Of a DNA stretch of 64,000 nt, positions 1,194-53,525 are shown piece after piece. The stretch is from the NCBI RefSeq assembly GCF_024435355.1, contig NZ_JAMJWG010000006.1, positions 124,001 to 188,000 of the forward strand, given 5' to 3'. Every line of letters begins with the position of its first letter. Positions within the stretch are counted from its first letter, which is position 1. The position numbers were made by a program, and so were the translations under genes. This DNA is from Streptomyces odontomachi (lineage in GTDB: Bacteria > Actinomycetota > Actinomycetes > Streptomycetales > Streptomycetaceae). The notes under the pieces were generated by a model. That model saw only the letters and a program-made list of their open reading frames with translations. It searched no databases and was not told the origin of the DNA.

Positions 1194-3908
1194 TCAGTTC
1201 CAGTCGGTCAGCCCGGCACCGTACGGATAGAGCGGTTTCCCGTAGCCCGTCGGCACCGGCTGTCCCGCGTCGATCTTCGCCCGGATCTCGGCGCGTTCGG
1301 CGTCGCTGGCGCCGAGGTCGTAGGGCAGGTCCCAGCTCTCGTTGGCGTCGGCCTGGGTGTCGGAGCCGCCCGACTTCAGGATCTGGTCCATGCTCGCGGG
1401 CAGCTGCCAGGGCAGGTGTCCGTGCGGGGTGTAGTCCCCGAAGAGCAGGCCGGCCGTCGCCGGGCCGACCTCTTCGCCGCCGCGGTAGGTCACCACGATG
1501 GCGTCGGCGAGGCCGTTCCAGTCGCTGATGACGATGGGTCGGGGCAGGGTGAGCACCACGACCACCGGGATCCCCTGGTCCTTGAACTGCTGGATCAGGG
1601 CGCGCTGGTCGGCGGGCAGCTGGGGTTGGGTGTTCGGCCAGGCGGTGGCGTGCGTGTACGACGGTTCGCCCACGTTCACCACCGCCAGCTTGGGCGACGG
1701 CCCGGTGTCCTGGTAGACGTTGACGCCCGCCTGGGCGGCCCTGGCCTTGATGGCGTCCAGCATGTCCAGCGAGCCGTAGTTCGGGTGGAAGTAGCTGGAC
1801 CAGATGCAGCAGGCGGCGCCGTCGGTGGCACGGTCGCCGGTGACCACGATGTTGTCGCCCGAGGACAGCTTCACCGGCAGCACGCCGTCGTTCTTCAGCA
1901 GGGTGTCGGACTCGCGTGCCGCCTTGTTCGCCAGCGCGACGTAGGACGGCTGGTGGAACCGGTAGGCGCCGTTCACCGGGTCGCCGTAGGGGTGCTCGAA
2001 GACGCCCAGTTCGAACTTGAGCGTGAGGATCCGGCGCACCGCGTCGTCGATCCGGGCCTGCGGCACCTGTGCCTCGAAGTCCGCCATGGAGAAGTCGGCG
2101 GATCCCGGGTCGGCGCCACCCATCACGTCGGAGCCGGCGTTGGCGGCGTTGATCCAGGCGCTGGAGGGCAGCCAGTCCGTGGTGATCAGGCCGGTGTAGC
2201 CCAGGTTGTCGCGTAGATAGGCGAGGATCTTGGCGCTGTCCCCGGCGCCGGGGCCGCCCGGGTCCAGGTAGGAGCTGCCCGCGTAGCCCGGCATGATGTT
2301 CACCGCACCGGCCTCCATCGCGGCCCTGAACGGGATCATGTGGTACTTGATCGTCACCCCGTCGTAGACGATGCCGGCCTCGCCGCCCGCGCCCTCACCG
2401 GGCCAGTGCTTGACGGTGGCGAGCACGGAGGACGGGTTGAGCTCCGGGCCGCCCTGCAACCCGGCGACCAGCGCCCGCAGCTGGGCCGCGGCCACGTCGG
2501 CGTTCTCGCCTCCGCCCTCCTGGATGCGGGGGTACAGGACCTTGGTGCCGACCTCGGCGAGCGGCGAGAGCGTGCCGCGCGCCCCGACCTCCAGCTCCTC
2601 CCGGCGCTGCATGTCGCCCAGCTGGTAGTCGAGCGGGTAGTCCTTGCCCGCGGCGAGGGTCGACTGCAAGGGGTACGTGGTCTGGTAGCCGGCGGTGGTG
2701 TCGCCCGCGGAGACGGGCGGGATGCCGAGCCGGGTGGCGGCCGTGGACAGCAGCACGTCGTGCAGGTCGGCGGGTTGCGCGGGGCCGAAGTGCCAGCCGG
2801 ACATCGGGTACGACTGGACGTTGTAGAACATCTGGTACGCCTTCTCCTGCGGCGTCATCCTGCCGAGGAGGTCGTTCACCCGGGTGTCGACGGGCAGCCG
2901 CCAGTTCTCGTACGGCTCGACGGAACCGTTCTTGTCCAGGTCGCGGGCGCCGTCCACGATCGACACACCGTCGTCGACCTGCTCGACGTCCGGCAGGTAG
3001 ACGCCGAACGTGCGGATCTTCGAGGTGGTCTGCTGCCCGGAACCGGACACCGCGACCACGAACCACCGGTACGTCCACCGGTCGGAGATGTCCCAGCTCG
3101 GCGTGTAGTCGGTGCCGGTGGTCTCGGCGACCTTGGTGTACAGGTCGAGCAGGTTGCCGGCGGCGGTGAAGTCGTAGTCGGTACGGCTGACGTTCAGCCA
3201 CACCTCGTAGTGGGCGGTGCCGGACACCGCCGCCCAGGACAGCTTCGGCCGGCGGGTGTCGGTGACGAGGGCGTGGTCGGCGGGCGCCGTCAGTTCGAAC
3301 TGGCCGGTGGTCGCCGGTGCCTTGGTGGGCCCGGAGAGCAGCGGCGGGGTGGCGGCGGAGTCGTCCACGGTCCCGTAGACCTGGAACTCCCACAGCGAGT
3401 AGCCGTACCCGGTGGCCCGTGCGGTGCCGGTGAACCTGACGTACCGGCCCTTGCCGGTGATGTCGAGCTGCTCGACGCCGCCCTTGCCCGCGGTGGTGGT
3501 GTGGATCGTGGACCACGTCGTGCCGTCGTCCGAGACGTCGATGTGGTAGCCGGTGGCGTACGCGGCCTCCCAGTTCAGCACGAGGCCGCTGATGTTGGCG
3601 GGGCCGCCGAGGTCCACCTGGAGCCACTGGTCGTCGCTGAACTCGCTGGACCACCGGGTGTCGGTACGCCCGTCCAGCGCCGCGGCCGGTGCATTGCCGC
3701 CCTCGTAGGACGACGCGGTGACCTGCTTGTACGCGGAGATGACGGTGCCGGAGGGGGCGGCTGCGGACCCGGCGTCGAGGGGGTGCACCGGGGCCGCTGT
3801 GGCGGGTGCGCCGGCCAGGCCGGCGAGTGCCAGCACCGCAGCGACGGCCACCGCGAAGGCCGGTCTGCACCTCCCGGCGGTGCGCAACAGTCGGGACAAC
3901 GGGCTCAT
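1194..3908 (-). CDS. secreted glycoside hydrolase family 3 enzyme with N-terminal discoidin (F5/8C) domain
   Basis: 904 aa. Residues 1-39 form a Sec signal (basic start, long Ala/Val/Leu core, AxA before the mature end). Residues ~55-180 are an F5/8 type C/CBM32 domain (ALDGRTDTRWSSEF, WLQVDLG, RYVRFTG). An Ig/Fn3-like segment (~190-300) follows. From ~335 the GH3 catalytic domains begin: VNDLLGRMTPQEKAYQM, the KH pair (K500-H501 in ATVKHWPGEG), and GLITTDW with D578 at the position of the GH3 nucleophile. The C-terminal alpha/beta sandwich contains TLLKNDGVLPVK. GH3 members are exo-acting beta-glucosidases, xylosidases or arabinofuranosidases; the substrate cannot be read here. The product is extracellular. 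A promoter and a LacI-type palindrome lie upstream. The next gene, divergent, is a GH2 enzyme. Confidence 0.88.
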   Translation of the reverse strand: MSPLSRLLRTAGRCRPAFAVAVAAVLALAGLAGAPATAAPVHPLDAGSAAAPSGTVISAYKQVTASSYEGGNAPAAALDGRTDTRWSSEFSDDQWLQVDLGGPANISGLVLNWEAAYATGYHIDVSDDGTTWSTIHTTTAGKGGVEQLDITGKGRYVRFTGTARATGYGYSLWEFQVYGTVDDSAATPPLLSGPTKAPATTGQFELTAPADHALVTDTRRPKLSWAAVSGTAHYEVWLNVSRTDYDFTAAGNLLDLYTKVAETTGTDYTPSWDISDRWTYRWFVVAVSGSGQQTTSKIRTFGVYLPDVEQVDDGVSIVDGARDLDKNGSVEPYENWRLPVDTRVNDLLGRMTPQEKAYQMFYNVQSYPMSGWHFGPAQPADLHDVLLSTAATRLGIPPVSAGDTTAGYQTTYPLQSTLAAGKDYPLDYQLGDMQRREELEVGARGTLSPLAEVGTKVLYPRIQEGGGENADVAAAQLRALVAGLQGGPELNPSSVLATVKHWPGEGAGGEAGIVYDGVTIKYHMIPFRAAMEAGAVNIMPGYAGSSYLDPGGPGAGDSAKILAYLRDNLGYTGLITTDWLPSSAWINAANAGSDVMGGADPGSADFSMADFEAQVPQARIDDAVRRILTLKFELGVFEHPYGDPVNGAYRFHQPSYVALANKAARESDTLLKNDGVLPVKLSSGDNIVVTGDRATDGAACCIWSSYFHPNYGSLDMLDAIKARAAQAGVNVYQDTGPSPKLAVVNVGEPSYTHATAWPNTQPQLPADQRALIQQFKDQGIPVVVVLTLPRPIVISDWNGLADAIVVTYRGGEEVGPATAGLLFGDYTPHGHLPWQLPASMDQILKSGGSDTQADANESWDLPYDLGASDAERAEIRAKIDAGQPVPTGYGKPLYPYGAGLTDWN

Positions 3909-51592: not shown

Positions 51593-51840
51593 GATGCTCC
51601 CCTCAGGATCGCCGGCGCAGGCTCGCGCTTGTCGCGCGGCGGGTACCAAGGGTGTGGTGATTCATCCCGGATATCCCCGGTAACGCGAATATTCGCATTC
51701 CGTTTCGCGGTCAGGGAGACGTCAGGGGCGCATCAGCGACCTCTGCCACTGTATTCATGTGACCGGCACGGGAAACCGAGCCGGGAACAGCGAAGGACAG
51801 AGAACGAGAGAAACAGCAGAAAACGGGGAACAGAAAACAA

Positions 51841-51939
51841 GGAGAGGTGCCCGGAGTGGTTTATCGGGGACCTTGGGCCTTTGGCCTCATGGGTCGGACC
51901 CTTCGCGGGTCTGCGCAGGTTCGAATCCTGCCCTCTCCG
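51841..51939 (+). tRNA. serine-type (class II) tRNA-like sequence with abnormal anticodon arm
   Basis: 99 bases. Perfect 7-bp acceptor (GGAGAGG 51841-51847 with CCTCTCC 51932-51938) and G at the discriminator position. D arm CCCG...CGGG with AGTGG in the loop. Long variable arm GACCC-ttcg-CGGGTC. Perfect T arm GCAGG-TTCGAAT-CCTGC (51915-51931). These are tRNA-Ser features. The anticodon arm fails: 51870-51895 folds as an extended helix (GACC/GGTC, then TG-GGCC/GGCC-CA) closed by a TTT triloop, with no 5-bp stem plus 7-base loop. No CCA is encoded. It may be a decayed tRNA, an attachment-site remnant or a tRNA mimic. It is preceded by ~70 purine-rich, A-rich bases (51770-51840). Confidence 0.55.
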
Positions 51940-51948
51940 CTCTTACGT

Positions 51949-52916
51949 TCAGACCAGTCGCCGGGACCAGTCCAGCAGCCAGGACGAGAATTCCGGCAGG
52001 GCGGCGAGGTGGCGCGCGGCGCGCTCCTCGGCGGCTGCCGGATCGAGCGAGCCGCCGGAATCCTCGCCGAGGCTTATCCGGAGCCGCTCGGCGCAGCGTG
52101 CCAGATGGACGCCGAGACGGCGGGCGAGCAGGAACTCGCTGCTCCTGATCTGCCCACCGCGCGCCTGGTAGGCGTCCAGGGCAGCGGCGATCCAGGCGGG
52201 GTCGGGCTCTTGGCCGCCCCCGGCGTGACGTGCGCCGTCGAAGACCGTAGCCGCCGTCTCCAGAGTGGCGCTGTCGGGGCCTGCGGTGTCCCAGTCGATC
52301 AGCACCGGGCCGCGCGCCGCGTCGATCAGGACGTTGTGCGGTACGACGTCACGGTGGGTGACGACGTGGTCGTCGACGGCGCGGTAGGCGGCGTCTATGC
52401 GTGCCGTGAGGTCGTCGATCAGTCCGCGGTGGCGGCGGAGGGCAGGAGCCCACGACCTGTCGCCTGCGTGTCCCGCGGCCAGCCAACGGTCCCACGCATC
52501 GGGCGGATTGACGCCGTACCACAGCCGCCAGAGGGAGTCGACGGTCCGTCGTCGGCAGCCCGAAGCACGTGCAGGTCGGCCAGGGTCGCGCCGAACCAGC
52601 GGGACAGCCCGTTCCCGCAGGGCTCCGCGTCCAACCATGCGTGGACGCGGACCACGCCATGGCCGTCACCGAGATCGGCGGCCAGCCCGAAGGCCGGGGT
52701 GACGGGTTCGACGGGGACGGACACGGGCAGGCCCGCCTCCGCCGCCCGCCGTTCGAAGGACATCGCGCGTTCCAGTTGGTCGCGCCACTCCCCGACGACG
52801 AGGCGTTTGACGAAGTACGGGTCCCGTCGTGTGTCGAGCCGCCACGTCTCGCTGCTGCCGTAGCGGAGGGGCACGAGTGGGCCGGTCGGCTCGGGAAGGC
52901 GGAAGGCGTGGGCGAC
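51949..52916 (-). pseudogene. aminoglycoside-phosphotransferase-family enzyme, frameshifted and lacking its start
   Basis: Two overlapping frames together encode one ~320-residue phosphotransferase. The upstream frame gives GPLVPLRYGSSETWRLD, FVKRLV and FGATLADLHVLRAADDG. From about 52550 the reading continues in another frame with SLWRLWYGVNPPDAW, the catalytic loop THRDVVPHNVLID (a Brenner-type HxDxxxxN) and LIDWDTAGP. A single missing base in the GACGACGGACC run would explain the shift; a sequencing error is not excluded. Upstream of codon GTC at 52916 there is no usable start, and the sequence turns into the antisense of a siderophore-synthetase fragment. Both faults make it a likely pseudogene. 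Confidence 0.75.
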
Positions 52917-52940
52917 CCCGCGGGCGTCGGGGGCTGGGGC

Positions 52941-53525
52941 TGCCTGGCGGCGTACGTCGACCACGGCGTCGTCCTCGAACCGCACTTGCAGAACGTGCTG
53001 GTGTGCGTCGGGGACGACGGGCTCCCCCGCCAGGTCCTCTTCCGTGACCTGGAAGGCACCAAGCTGCTCCCCGAACACCACGCGACCGCGCTGGCGAAGC
53101 TACCGCCGCAGGTCGCCGGCCCGCTCGGCTACGACGCCGAGCAGGCCTGGAACCGGCTGGCCTACTGCCTGTTCGTCAACAACATCGGTGACATGCTGGC
53201 CGCGCTCGCCGACCTGTCCCCCGGCACGGAGGGCGCGCTGTGGTCCGCGGTGCGCCGCACCGTGAGCGGGTACGCAACCCGCTACGGCCGCCACCCCCGG
53301 CTGGACGCACTGCTCGCGGGCGAGCCGCTGCCCGCCAAGGCCAACCTCCTCACCCGCTGGGGGCGTGCGGCCGACCGGCAGGCGACGTACGTGCCGCTGC
53401 CGTCGCCCCTGGCTCCCCCGCGCACCACGTCCGGTGGCACGGCACGGGGCGAGGCCGTGCCGCAGGTCGGCGCGCCGGTGCCCCGCCAGGGCAGCCAGGA
53501 CCTACCGAGCGGAGCCGCCCGATGA
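52941..53525 (+). pseudogene. 5'-truncated IucA/IucC-type (NIS) siderophore synthetase, C-terminal third only
   Basis: About 194 codons open in frame with no start of their own. The sequence matches the ferric-reductase-like C-terminal part of NIS synthetases: YVDHGVVLEPHLQNVLVC, LFRDLEGTKLLPEH, NRLAYCLFVNNIGDMLAALA and KANLLTRWGR. Full-length enzymes are ~550-600 aa and use ATP to join carboxylates to amines in siderophores such as aerobactin. The missing ~380 residues are replaced by the phosphotransferase gene on the other strand. The end overlaps the decarboxylase start (ATGA), the coupling of an intact siderophore operon that has lost its front. Confidence 0.82.

Follow-up and report, generated by a model that had tools for sequence, protein, structure and literature searches.

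A 64,000-nucleotide stretch of the Streptomyces odontomachi genome (hereafter the window) carries, at positions 51841-51939 of its plus strand, a gene for a seryl-tRNA-like RNA in which a closed hairpin stands in place of the anticodon arm. The gene belongs to a family that keeps a common fold with covarying stems, occurs in genomes that hold a vlmA-like gene, frequently lies beside that gene and, in most copies, shares a promoter motif with the azoxy gene cluster. VlmA moves serine from Ser-tRNA to a hydroxylamine (PMC11705231, PMC12945691). In our assessment, the tRNA-like RNA is very probably a dedicated, non-decoding seryl-tRNA that feeds VlmA in azoxy antibiotic synthesis.

Structure and conservation of the tRNA-like family

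The gene and its parts in the window are as follows.
51841..51939, plus strand: anticodon-less seryl-tRNA-like gene, 7-bp acceptor stem to G73; identified by its fold and by a score of 86.8 bits with covariance model R1, built from an alignment of 42 sequences (the window copy, which is thus among the training sequences, and 41 relatives)
51869..51895, plus strand: hairpin at the site of the anticodon arm, with a bulged helix of 11 bp and a UUU triloop (minimum free energy (MFE) structure and family-wide pair counts)
51896..51912, plus strand: long variable arm of 6 bp (MFE structure), expected to be the main recognition element for seryl-tRNA synthetase (SerRS; role after PMC9976931)

The earlier note on this DNA, made from its letters, described a serine-type tRNA-like sequence whose anticodon arm is replaced by a hairpin with a TTT triloop; sequence, coordinates and fold agree with that description, and the 11-bp helix is interrupted. 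It also called the acceptor stem, D arm, long variable arm and T arm perfect and G73 present, which is what the MFE fold contains: a cloverleaf with a 7-bp acceptor stem, a D arm, the 6-bp long variable arm, a 5-bp T arm and an unpaired G73, as in a canonical tRNA-Ser. The family lacks the 7-nt anticodon loop with a serine anticodon that marks a canonical decoding tRNA-Ser. At -50.4 kcal/mol the fold is more stable than those of shuffled sequences (-39.9 +/- 3.2 kcal/mol; z = -3.3), with none of 200 shuffles as stable. The CCA 3' end is not genome-encoded. Judged from sequence, with the serine identity set taken from PMC9976931, the family carries the long variable arm, G1-C72, G2-C71 and G73 and would qualify as a SerRS substrate.

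Standard annotation tools misread the gene. ARAGORN labels it as a shifted 'tRNA-Met (cat)' at 51853-51940, and no Rfam family reached its gathering score in a scan of the window. The best tRNA-class match is tRNA-Sec (RF01852), which at 26.7 bits stays below its cut-off of 47, and the minus strand matches a plastid 3'UTR model at 28.3 bits against a cut-off of 68. Its R1 score, together with the 82-95 bits of six further copies in the same genome, indicates that the resemblance to tRNA is more than chance.

To describe the family, we collected 152 distinct sequences with a pattern that matches only where the acceptor stem is paired and the T loop and G73 are present, one ordinary tRNA-Ser being removed; the near-invariance of the acceptor, D and T arms among them is, for the acceptor stem, T loop and G73, partly a product of that pattern. 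The arm region folds into exactly two hairpins in 152/152 sequences. The first, at the site of the anticodon arm, has 6-11 bp in 149 of the 152 and a loop of 3-5 nt in 144, and a 7-nt loop appears in the MFE fold of a single sequence. Both the sequence of this arm and its loop size vary, even among the copies of one genome.

Its pairing is nevertheless retained. In a MAFFT alignment, the helix replacing the anticodon arm has 77.6% of its cells paired, and 7 of its 8 pairs have changed on both sides; the covariation score of the whole structure (0.193) exceeds that of shuffles (0.117), none of 500 being as high. A model-fitted alignment (A4, 86 distinct rows), made without the requirements of the collection pattern but leaning to the covariance model, gives 7 of 8 pairs, 83.9% of cells paired and a covariation of 0.163 against 0.093, again with 0/500 as high. 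The shuffles ignore relatedness; sliding the pair partners by one column, which retains relatedness, lowers the paired cells from 91-93% to 54-59% in both alignments. Taken together, the both-side changes, the covariation and the slide control suggest that the pairing of the arm rather than its sequence is under selection, with no anticodon kept. The arm-by-arm comparison of relatives that the earlier note had called for thus finds the hairpin kept as pairing and the acceptor, D and T arms most conserved.

The T stem has A51 in 151 of the 152 sequences, as against G51-C63 in the four ordinary tRNA-Ser found in the S. odontomachi genome. By analogy with a staphylococcal tRNA-Gly discussed below, the A51-U63 pair may weaken binding to EF-Tu. 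G49 and G18G19 are retained in the alignment of the family.

Distribution and association with VlmA-type gene clusters

The S. odontomachi genome has seven copies: that of the window, three identical tandem copies on contig C43 and one each on C29, C1 and C54. Four ordinary tRNA-Ser genes (GCU, UGA, CGA, GGA) lie elsewhere in the genome. Among 392 sampled genomes of the genus, the best R1 match has E < 1e-9 in 51 (weakest 2.9e-11), and the next-best genome reaches E = 1.6e-7. This search scored at most 10 candidates per genome, which makes its copy numbers minima. Copy number reaches 15 in S. griseofuscus DSM 40191 (G399). In a Kitasatospora set, E < 1e-9 was reached in 9 of 70 genomes; G457 has one match at 4.3e-9, and G485 carries 17 copies, two of them at 64 bits. 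Copies are also found in Micromonospora, Salinispora, Microbispora, Streptantibioticus, Actinacidiphila and Actinokineospora, and the families represented are Streptomycetaceae, Micromonosporaceae, Streptosporangiaceae and Pseudonocardiaceae. Among weak R1 matches, five checked at 46-48 bits proved to be ordinary tRNA-Tyr and one of 48.6 bits in the S. odontomachi genome is tRNA-Ser(GGA), and such matches were not taken as family members; others have E values of 1e-5 to 1e-7 (for example G047, G105 and G184) or scores of 50-56 bits, and three lie at 64-66 bits (G457, G485).

All 51 genomes with a tRNA-like gene fall among the 82 of the 392 that have a VlmA-like gene (hypergeometric log10 P = -42, uncorrected for relatedness), and the 31 VlmA genomes without one mostly hold a more distant VlmA. 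A query from tRNA-like-bearing clusters found 251 VlmA loci, of which we named the best 80; these are hence biased to the clade of the query. Of the 80, 64 have a tRNA-like gene in the flanks (up to 10 kb); by hand count, 55 of these have it upstream of vlmA and divergent from it, on the opposite strand and no more than ~0.6 kb away. Ten of the 16 loci without a flanking copy belong to genomes that carry strong copies elsewhere. The azoxy cluster of S. odontomachi itself, on contig C29, has its copy ~0.12 kb from the VlmA-type gene, in divergent orientation.

The association follows VlmA phylogeny. In a tree of 103 rows, built without six duplicates (L040, L045, L056, L059, L267 and L268), 79 of the 85 rows of one clade have a tRNA-like gene, 69 in the fetched stretch and 10 elsewhere in the genome. 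The sister clade, whose 18 rows were hand-picked from lower-scoring VlmA matches, has none in any fetched stretch and none at all in 17 of 18 genomes; the exception, G303, has its copy beside its other VlmA. The midpoint-rooted tree supports the basal split at 86/88 and an inner branch of 83 rows at 100/99. An Ala-type counterpart was sought with ARAGORN beside sister-clade VlmA, in 18 stretches and 2 others, and only one tRNA-Val and a 'tRNA-Pro' call near the second VlmA of G303 (L266:14584-14666) were returned; on reading, the latter lacks the T loop of the tRNA-like family and was rejected.

Clustering of the proteins of 39 loci, the window included, separated copies that lie within one shared gene cluster from others that are dispersed. 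The shared neighbours were identified with Pfam and NCBIfam, and Vlm roles were assigned after PMC9379638 and PMC11705231:
LPG_synthase_C transferase, VlmA type
SerRS, VlmL type
DAGK-like kinase, VlmJ type
MmgE/PrpD protein, VlmK type
AurF-like diiron enzyme, VlmB type
weak DUF4260 match (E 0.023, in one of three members tried), VlmO type
acyl-CoA-dehydrogenase-like oxygenase, VlmH type
flavin reductase, VlmR type
SARP, ketosynthase, aminotransferase, aldehyde dehydrogenase, desaturase and transporter, further shared genes

A homologue of the SARP gene is present in 54 of the 80 named VlmA loci. VlmH has the acyl-CoA-dehydrogenase fold. One genome, which we take to be that of Kitasatospora setae, contains a valanimycin-type cluster in which two identical tandem tRNA-like copies adjoin homologues of vlmJ, vlmK, the SARP gene and vlmL, with the vlmA, vlmH, vlmO and vlmB homologues ~16 kb from the two copies; in a second cluster of the same genome, five tandem copies and an exact three-box promoter site (see below) adjoin vlmA.

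The window copy is a dispersed one, flanked by a sortase gene and an APH-like gene. Of 41 genomes searched, four have the sortase neighbour, at 73-76% identity; the remaining locus is not conserved, and one of the four has a tRNA-Arg nearby. On the minus strand at 51949-53081, two overlapping frames (51949-52638 and 52419-53081) match different parts of the APH phosphotransferase family, an arrangement that looks like the result of a disrupted frame or of misassembly. Two further observations concern other genomes. At L406 (G475:C4:7004449-7006921), a row of tRNA-like genes with ~265 bp spacing includes at least five that each have their own three-box site; promoter and gene are amplified here as one unit, unlike the tandem copies of other strains, which have one common promoter. 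Four other genomes of the genus carry a ~75-nt tRNA (L029, L031, L032 and L033, ~1495-1575, minus strand) with an 8-nt anticodon loop, CUCUGAUC, which ARAGORN reads as a four-base anticodon 'ctga'; its T arm nearly equals that of the tRNA-like family, and the rest differs.

Promoter motif, cluster SerRS and proposed role

SARP activators bind direct repeats 11 bp apart, the last of them 8 bp from the -10 element (PMC10936776), and sites of the SARP VlmI with three heptamers have been reported upstream of vlmJ and of vlmA-vlmH (PMC10972967). A putative site of this type precedes the window gene:
51710..51736, plus strand: three direct repeats of SARP-box type, GTCAG-N6-GTCAG-N6-ATCAG, with an 11-bp period (exact motif match)
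51747..51752, plus strand: CACTGT, a -10-like hexamer starting 8 bp after the third heptamer (51732-51738), in keeping with the spacing rule of PMC10936776
51753..51840, plus strand: presumed start site and 5' leader, which, given the promoter position, would be removed by RNase P

This is one of 9 exact sites in the S. odontomachi genome. Allowing one mismatch gives 17 sites, which include all five tRNA-like loci, against 1 for the reversed pattern. Upstream of first or solo copies across the family, GTCAG-N6-GTCAG-N6-RTCAG is found as three boxes in 100 of 141 cases and as two boxes in 29. Ten chosen tRNA-like genomes hold 68 exact sites, of which 30 are at a tRNA-like gene and 29 within 40 kb of vlmA; this total of 59 ignores orientation and includes one site in the opposite sense. 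The reversed-pattern control gave 0-2 sites per genome.

Two exact three-box sites of S. odontomachi have other neighbours. One, on contig C34, has directly downstream a serine hydroxymethyltransferase gene and then a gene for tryptophanyl-tRNA synthetase (L325:2024-3550), the former possibly serving serine supply. The other (C29:238621-238647; L324) has no tRNA-like gene and adjoins an AraC-type regulator gene, ~0.9 kb before an MFS transporter gene.

A cluster-type SerRS was called in 27 genomes, all 27 of which have tRNA-like genes. The search matched 58 genomes, with 4 candidates scored in each; 25 were assigned by a score of at least 690 bits and two (G038 and G362, at 630 and 621 bits) by their location ~6 kb from vlmA, and the remaining matches at 635-675 bits (highest in G271) were taken as housekeeping enzymes. 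Between the cluster type (13 rows) and housekeeping SerRS (6 rows), identity is 39% in the N-terminal arm and 65% in the core; within groups, the values for arm and core are 80/87% for housekeeping and 57/78% for cluster-type enzymes. The diverged N-terminal tRNA-binding arm fits a changed tRNA preference but does not prove it.

These observations suggest the following scheme. A SARP activator would bind the boxes and switch on the azoxy gene cluster and the dispersed tRNA-like copies together. The transcribed RNA, having kept the features that SerRS reads, would be charged with serine by the cluster SerRS of VlmL type or by the housekeeping enzyme; serine identity resides mainly in the variable arm and does not involve the anticodon (PMC9976931), so charging of a tRNA-Ser could survive the loss of that element. 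The VlmA-type transferase would then take the serine to form an ester with a hydroxylamine, as a step towards the azoxy bond. With a closed hairpin where the anticodon would be, the charged RNA should be unable to decode, and its serine would be reserved for the pathway, with the RNA presumably kept away from the ribosome and from EF-Tu. The suggestion in the earlier note of a tRNA mimic with a non-ribosomal role, such as donating serine, is thereby supported and given a specific pathway, VlmA-type azoxy biosynthesis.

Several observations weigh against this scheme. The donor model leaves the many dispersed copies without explanation. Six VlmA loci of the tRNA-like-bearing clade have neither a copy in the stretch nor a strong copy in the genome, although one (L124) lies at a contig edge and the genome of another (L158) has one 52-bit match at a contig edge; the RNA is therefore not strictly required, and an ordinary tRNA-Ser probably can stand in for it. 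By the score and place test, with 4 candidates per genome, 24 of the 51 tRNA-like genomes have no cluster SerRS, so SerRS and RNA do not form a single fixed pair. Of the 141 first or solo copies, 12 lack the strict box pattern; two of the 12 (L196) are in fact tandem followers and several show TCTCAG variants on reading. The pattern was likewise not found at the two copies of the valanimycin-type cluster in the presumed K. setae genome. Exact box sites also occur in ten genomes without tRNA-like genes, with 0 to 8 per genome and 31 in all; some fall in low-complexity repeats (G007, G065), and in G015 five lie within ~36 kb. Hence the motif by itself lacks specificity. Under this motif, a serine hydroxymethyltransferase gene was seen only in S. 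odontomachi and at 0/80 named loci, and we therefore do not rely on its membership in the regulon. In the alignments, pair types are no more numerous than in shuffles (167/500 as high for MAFFT, 81/500 for A4). Finally, the reviews consulted record no special tRNA for VlmL or VlmA.

We weighed the serine-donor role against other explanations of the same locus. A regulatory RNA of the azoxy regulon, which would act as a sensor of serine or of SerRS activity, or would titrate SerRS or some modifying enzyme, and would not be the donor, is unlikely. The SARP-type promoter motif and the many dispersed copies would suit it, and a regulatory pseudo-tRNA is known in Bacillus cereus (PMC3399842), but the most conserved arms (acceptor, D and T) are those that SerRS or the transferase would touch, the partner genes encode a Ser-tRNA-using transferase and a SerRS, and T-box sensing needs the anticodon (PMC4052509) that the RNA lacks. 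We give distinctly less credence to an element acting as DNA, an attachment site or mobile cassette that copies the 3' end of a tRNA-Ser and has no RNA function. Dispersal of the copies, in some genomes in the chromosome arms (in G399, 14/14 chromosomal copies lie within ~0.75 Mb of an end), and the general use of tRNA genes as integration sites (see also PMC3399842) speak for it. In G388, however, whose chromosome measures 10.8 Mb, the copies are found at 2.6-6.7 Mb and not in the arms, no integrase occurs among the annotated shared neighbour families (singletons lie outside the annotation), and the compensatory stem changes, the gene's own promoter motif and the 51/51 coupling to vlmA point to a role as RNA.

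Two options of the earlier note, a recent pseudogene and a tRNA-Ser broken by an integration event, have lost nearly all credibility. The meaningless anticodon given by ARAGORN would be in line with decay, but at least 152 distinct two-hairpin relatives from four actinobacterial families share a conserved fold with compensatory changes, co-occurrence with the vlmA-like gene is complete, and the genome has its four ordinary tRNA-Ser elsewhere; disruption by integration is disfavoured by the hairpin being family-wide. In a weak test, ARAGORN found no normal tRNA-Ser within ~1.5 kb of the shared sortase gene in the four relatives that have it. It is just as hard to believe that the RNA decodes, through an anticodon loop restored by splicing or by reading a four-base codon: ARAGORN does read assorted 'anticodons' of 2-4 nt in the loops, yet loop size and sequence are not conserved among the copies of one genome, the arm is closed by pairing in every sequence collected, and two long covariance-model matches (L133 and L167, 187-191 nt) that might have been intron-bearing copies contain N runs, which are assembly gaps and not introns.

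Beyond the serine-donor role itself, a wider proposal, in which our belief falls a little short of our doubt, is that the parts form an insulated second serine-tRNA system, with a diverged-arm cluster SerRS, up to 15-17 dispersed anticodon-free tRNAs and the transferase, all switched on by one SARP in streptomycetes and their relatives. If true, it would give antibiotic synthesis a serine pool beyond the reach of translation, constitute a tRNA class devoted solely to natural-product chemistry and offer a ready-made orthogonal SerRS/tRNA/transferase set. On the narrower reading, too, the family is a possible orthogonal seryl-tRNA system. It also allows a large clade of VlmA clusters to be recognised by sequence and accounts for nonsensical ARAGORN calls at such loci, and in heterologous expression a cluster moved without the dispersed tRNA copies may be limited in yield.

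Comparison with known systems

It is a standing question how enzymes that use aminoacyl-tRNA, whether in antibiotic pathways, the cell wall or lipid modification, compete with EF-Tu and the ribosome. For valanimycin, a 2014 review described the mechanism that draws Ser-tRNA away from translation as unknown (PMC4052509), and for the azodyrecin cluster, which has no aminoacyl-tRNA synthetase, the cellular Ala-tRNA pool was suggested as the source (PMC9379638). An anticodon-less tRNA under the promoter motif of the pathway would be a direct, testable answer to the valanimycin question. Among the matches listed in the open-access literature, a scope that excludes most subscription papers and all preprints, we found no earlier report of such a tRNA.

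The closest system is that of valanimycin (VlmA/VlmL/VlmJ/VlmK/VlmO/VlmB/VlmH/VlmR with the SARP VlmI), with which the loci described here share homologous cluster genes by family, the Ser-tRNA chemistry and putative SARP sites that resemble the three-heptamer sites reported at vlmJ and vlmA-vlmH; the available parts of the papers describe its Ser-tRNA without a special tRNA (PMC10972967, PMC11705231, PMC4052509) and mention no dedicated gene for an anticodon-less tRNA. The non-proteinogenic tRNA-Gly of Staphylococcus aureus, the donor for the peptidoglycan bridge, is, as proposed for the tRNA-like RNA, a tRNA set aside for a non-ribosomal transferase. Its isoacceptors retain an anticodon loop, unlike the hairpin-bearing tRNA-like RNA, which also differs in pathway, SARP-type promoter and number of copies. 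Both have A51-U63 instead of the strong EF-Tu pair G51-C63, and in the staphylococcal tRNA this is linked to weak EF-Tu binding; G18G19 and the pair 49-65 (A49-U65) are altered there (PMC4052509), in contrast to the G18G19 and G49 kept by the tRNA-like family.

More distant parallels exist. tmRNA is an alanylated tRNA-like molecule without an anticodon, and tRNA-Sec is a SerRS substrate with a long variable arm. The RNA described here resembles the former in lacking the anticodon and the latter in its long variable arm and as its nearest Rfam tRNA model, but it has no mRNA part, shows the normal 7/5 acceptor-T geometry, scores far below the tRNA-Sec cut-off and does not appear to decode. We know of no link between the tRNA-Other of Bacillus cereus and azoxy genes. 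As is proposed for the present family, tRNA-Other is a tRNA-like RNA outside translation, there linked to antibiotic resistance; unlike the family, it carries an anticodon, that for Trp, and its charging in vitro, with Lys, is poor (PMC3399842). Donor tRNAs outside translation are thus known, and what would be new, as far as we searched, is an anticodon-less donor tied to a natural product and to its promoter motif.
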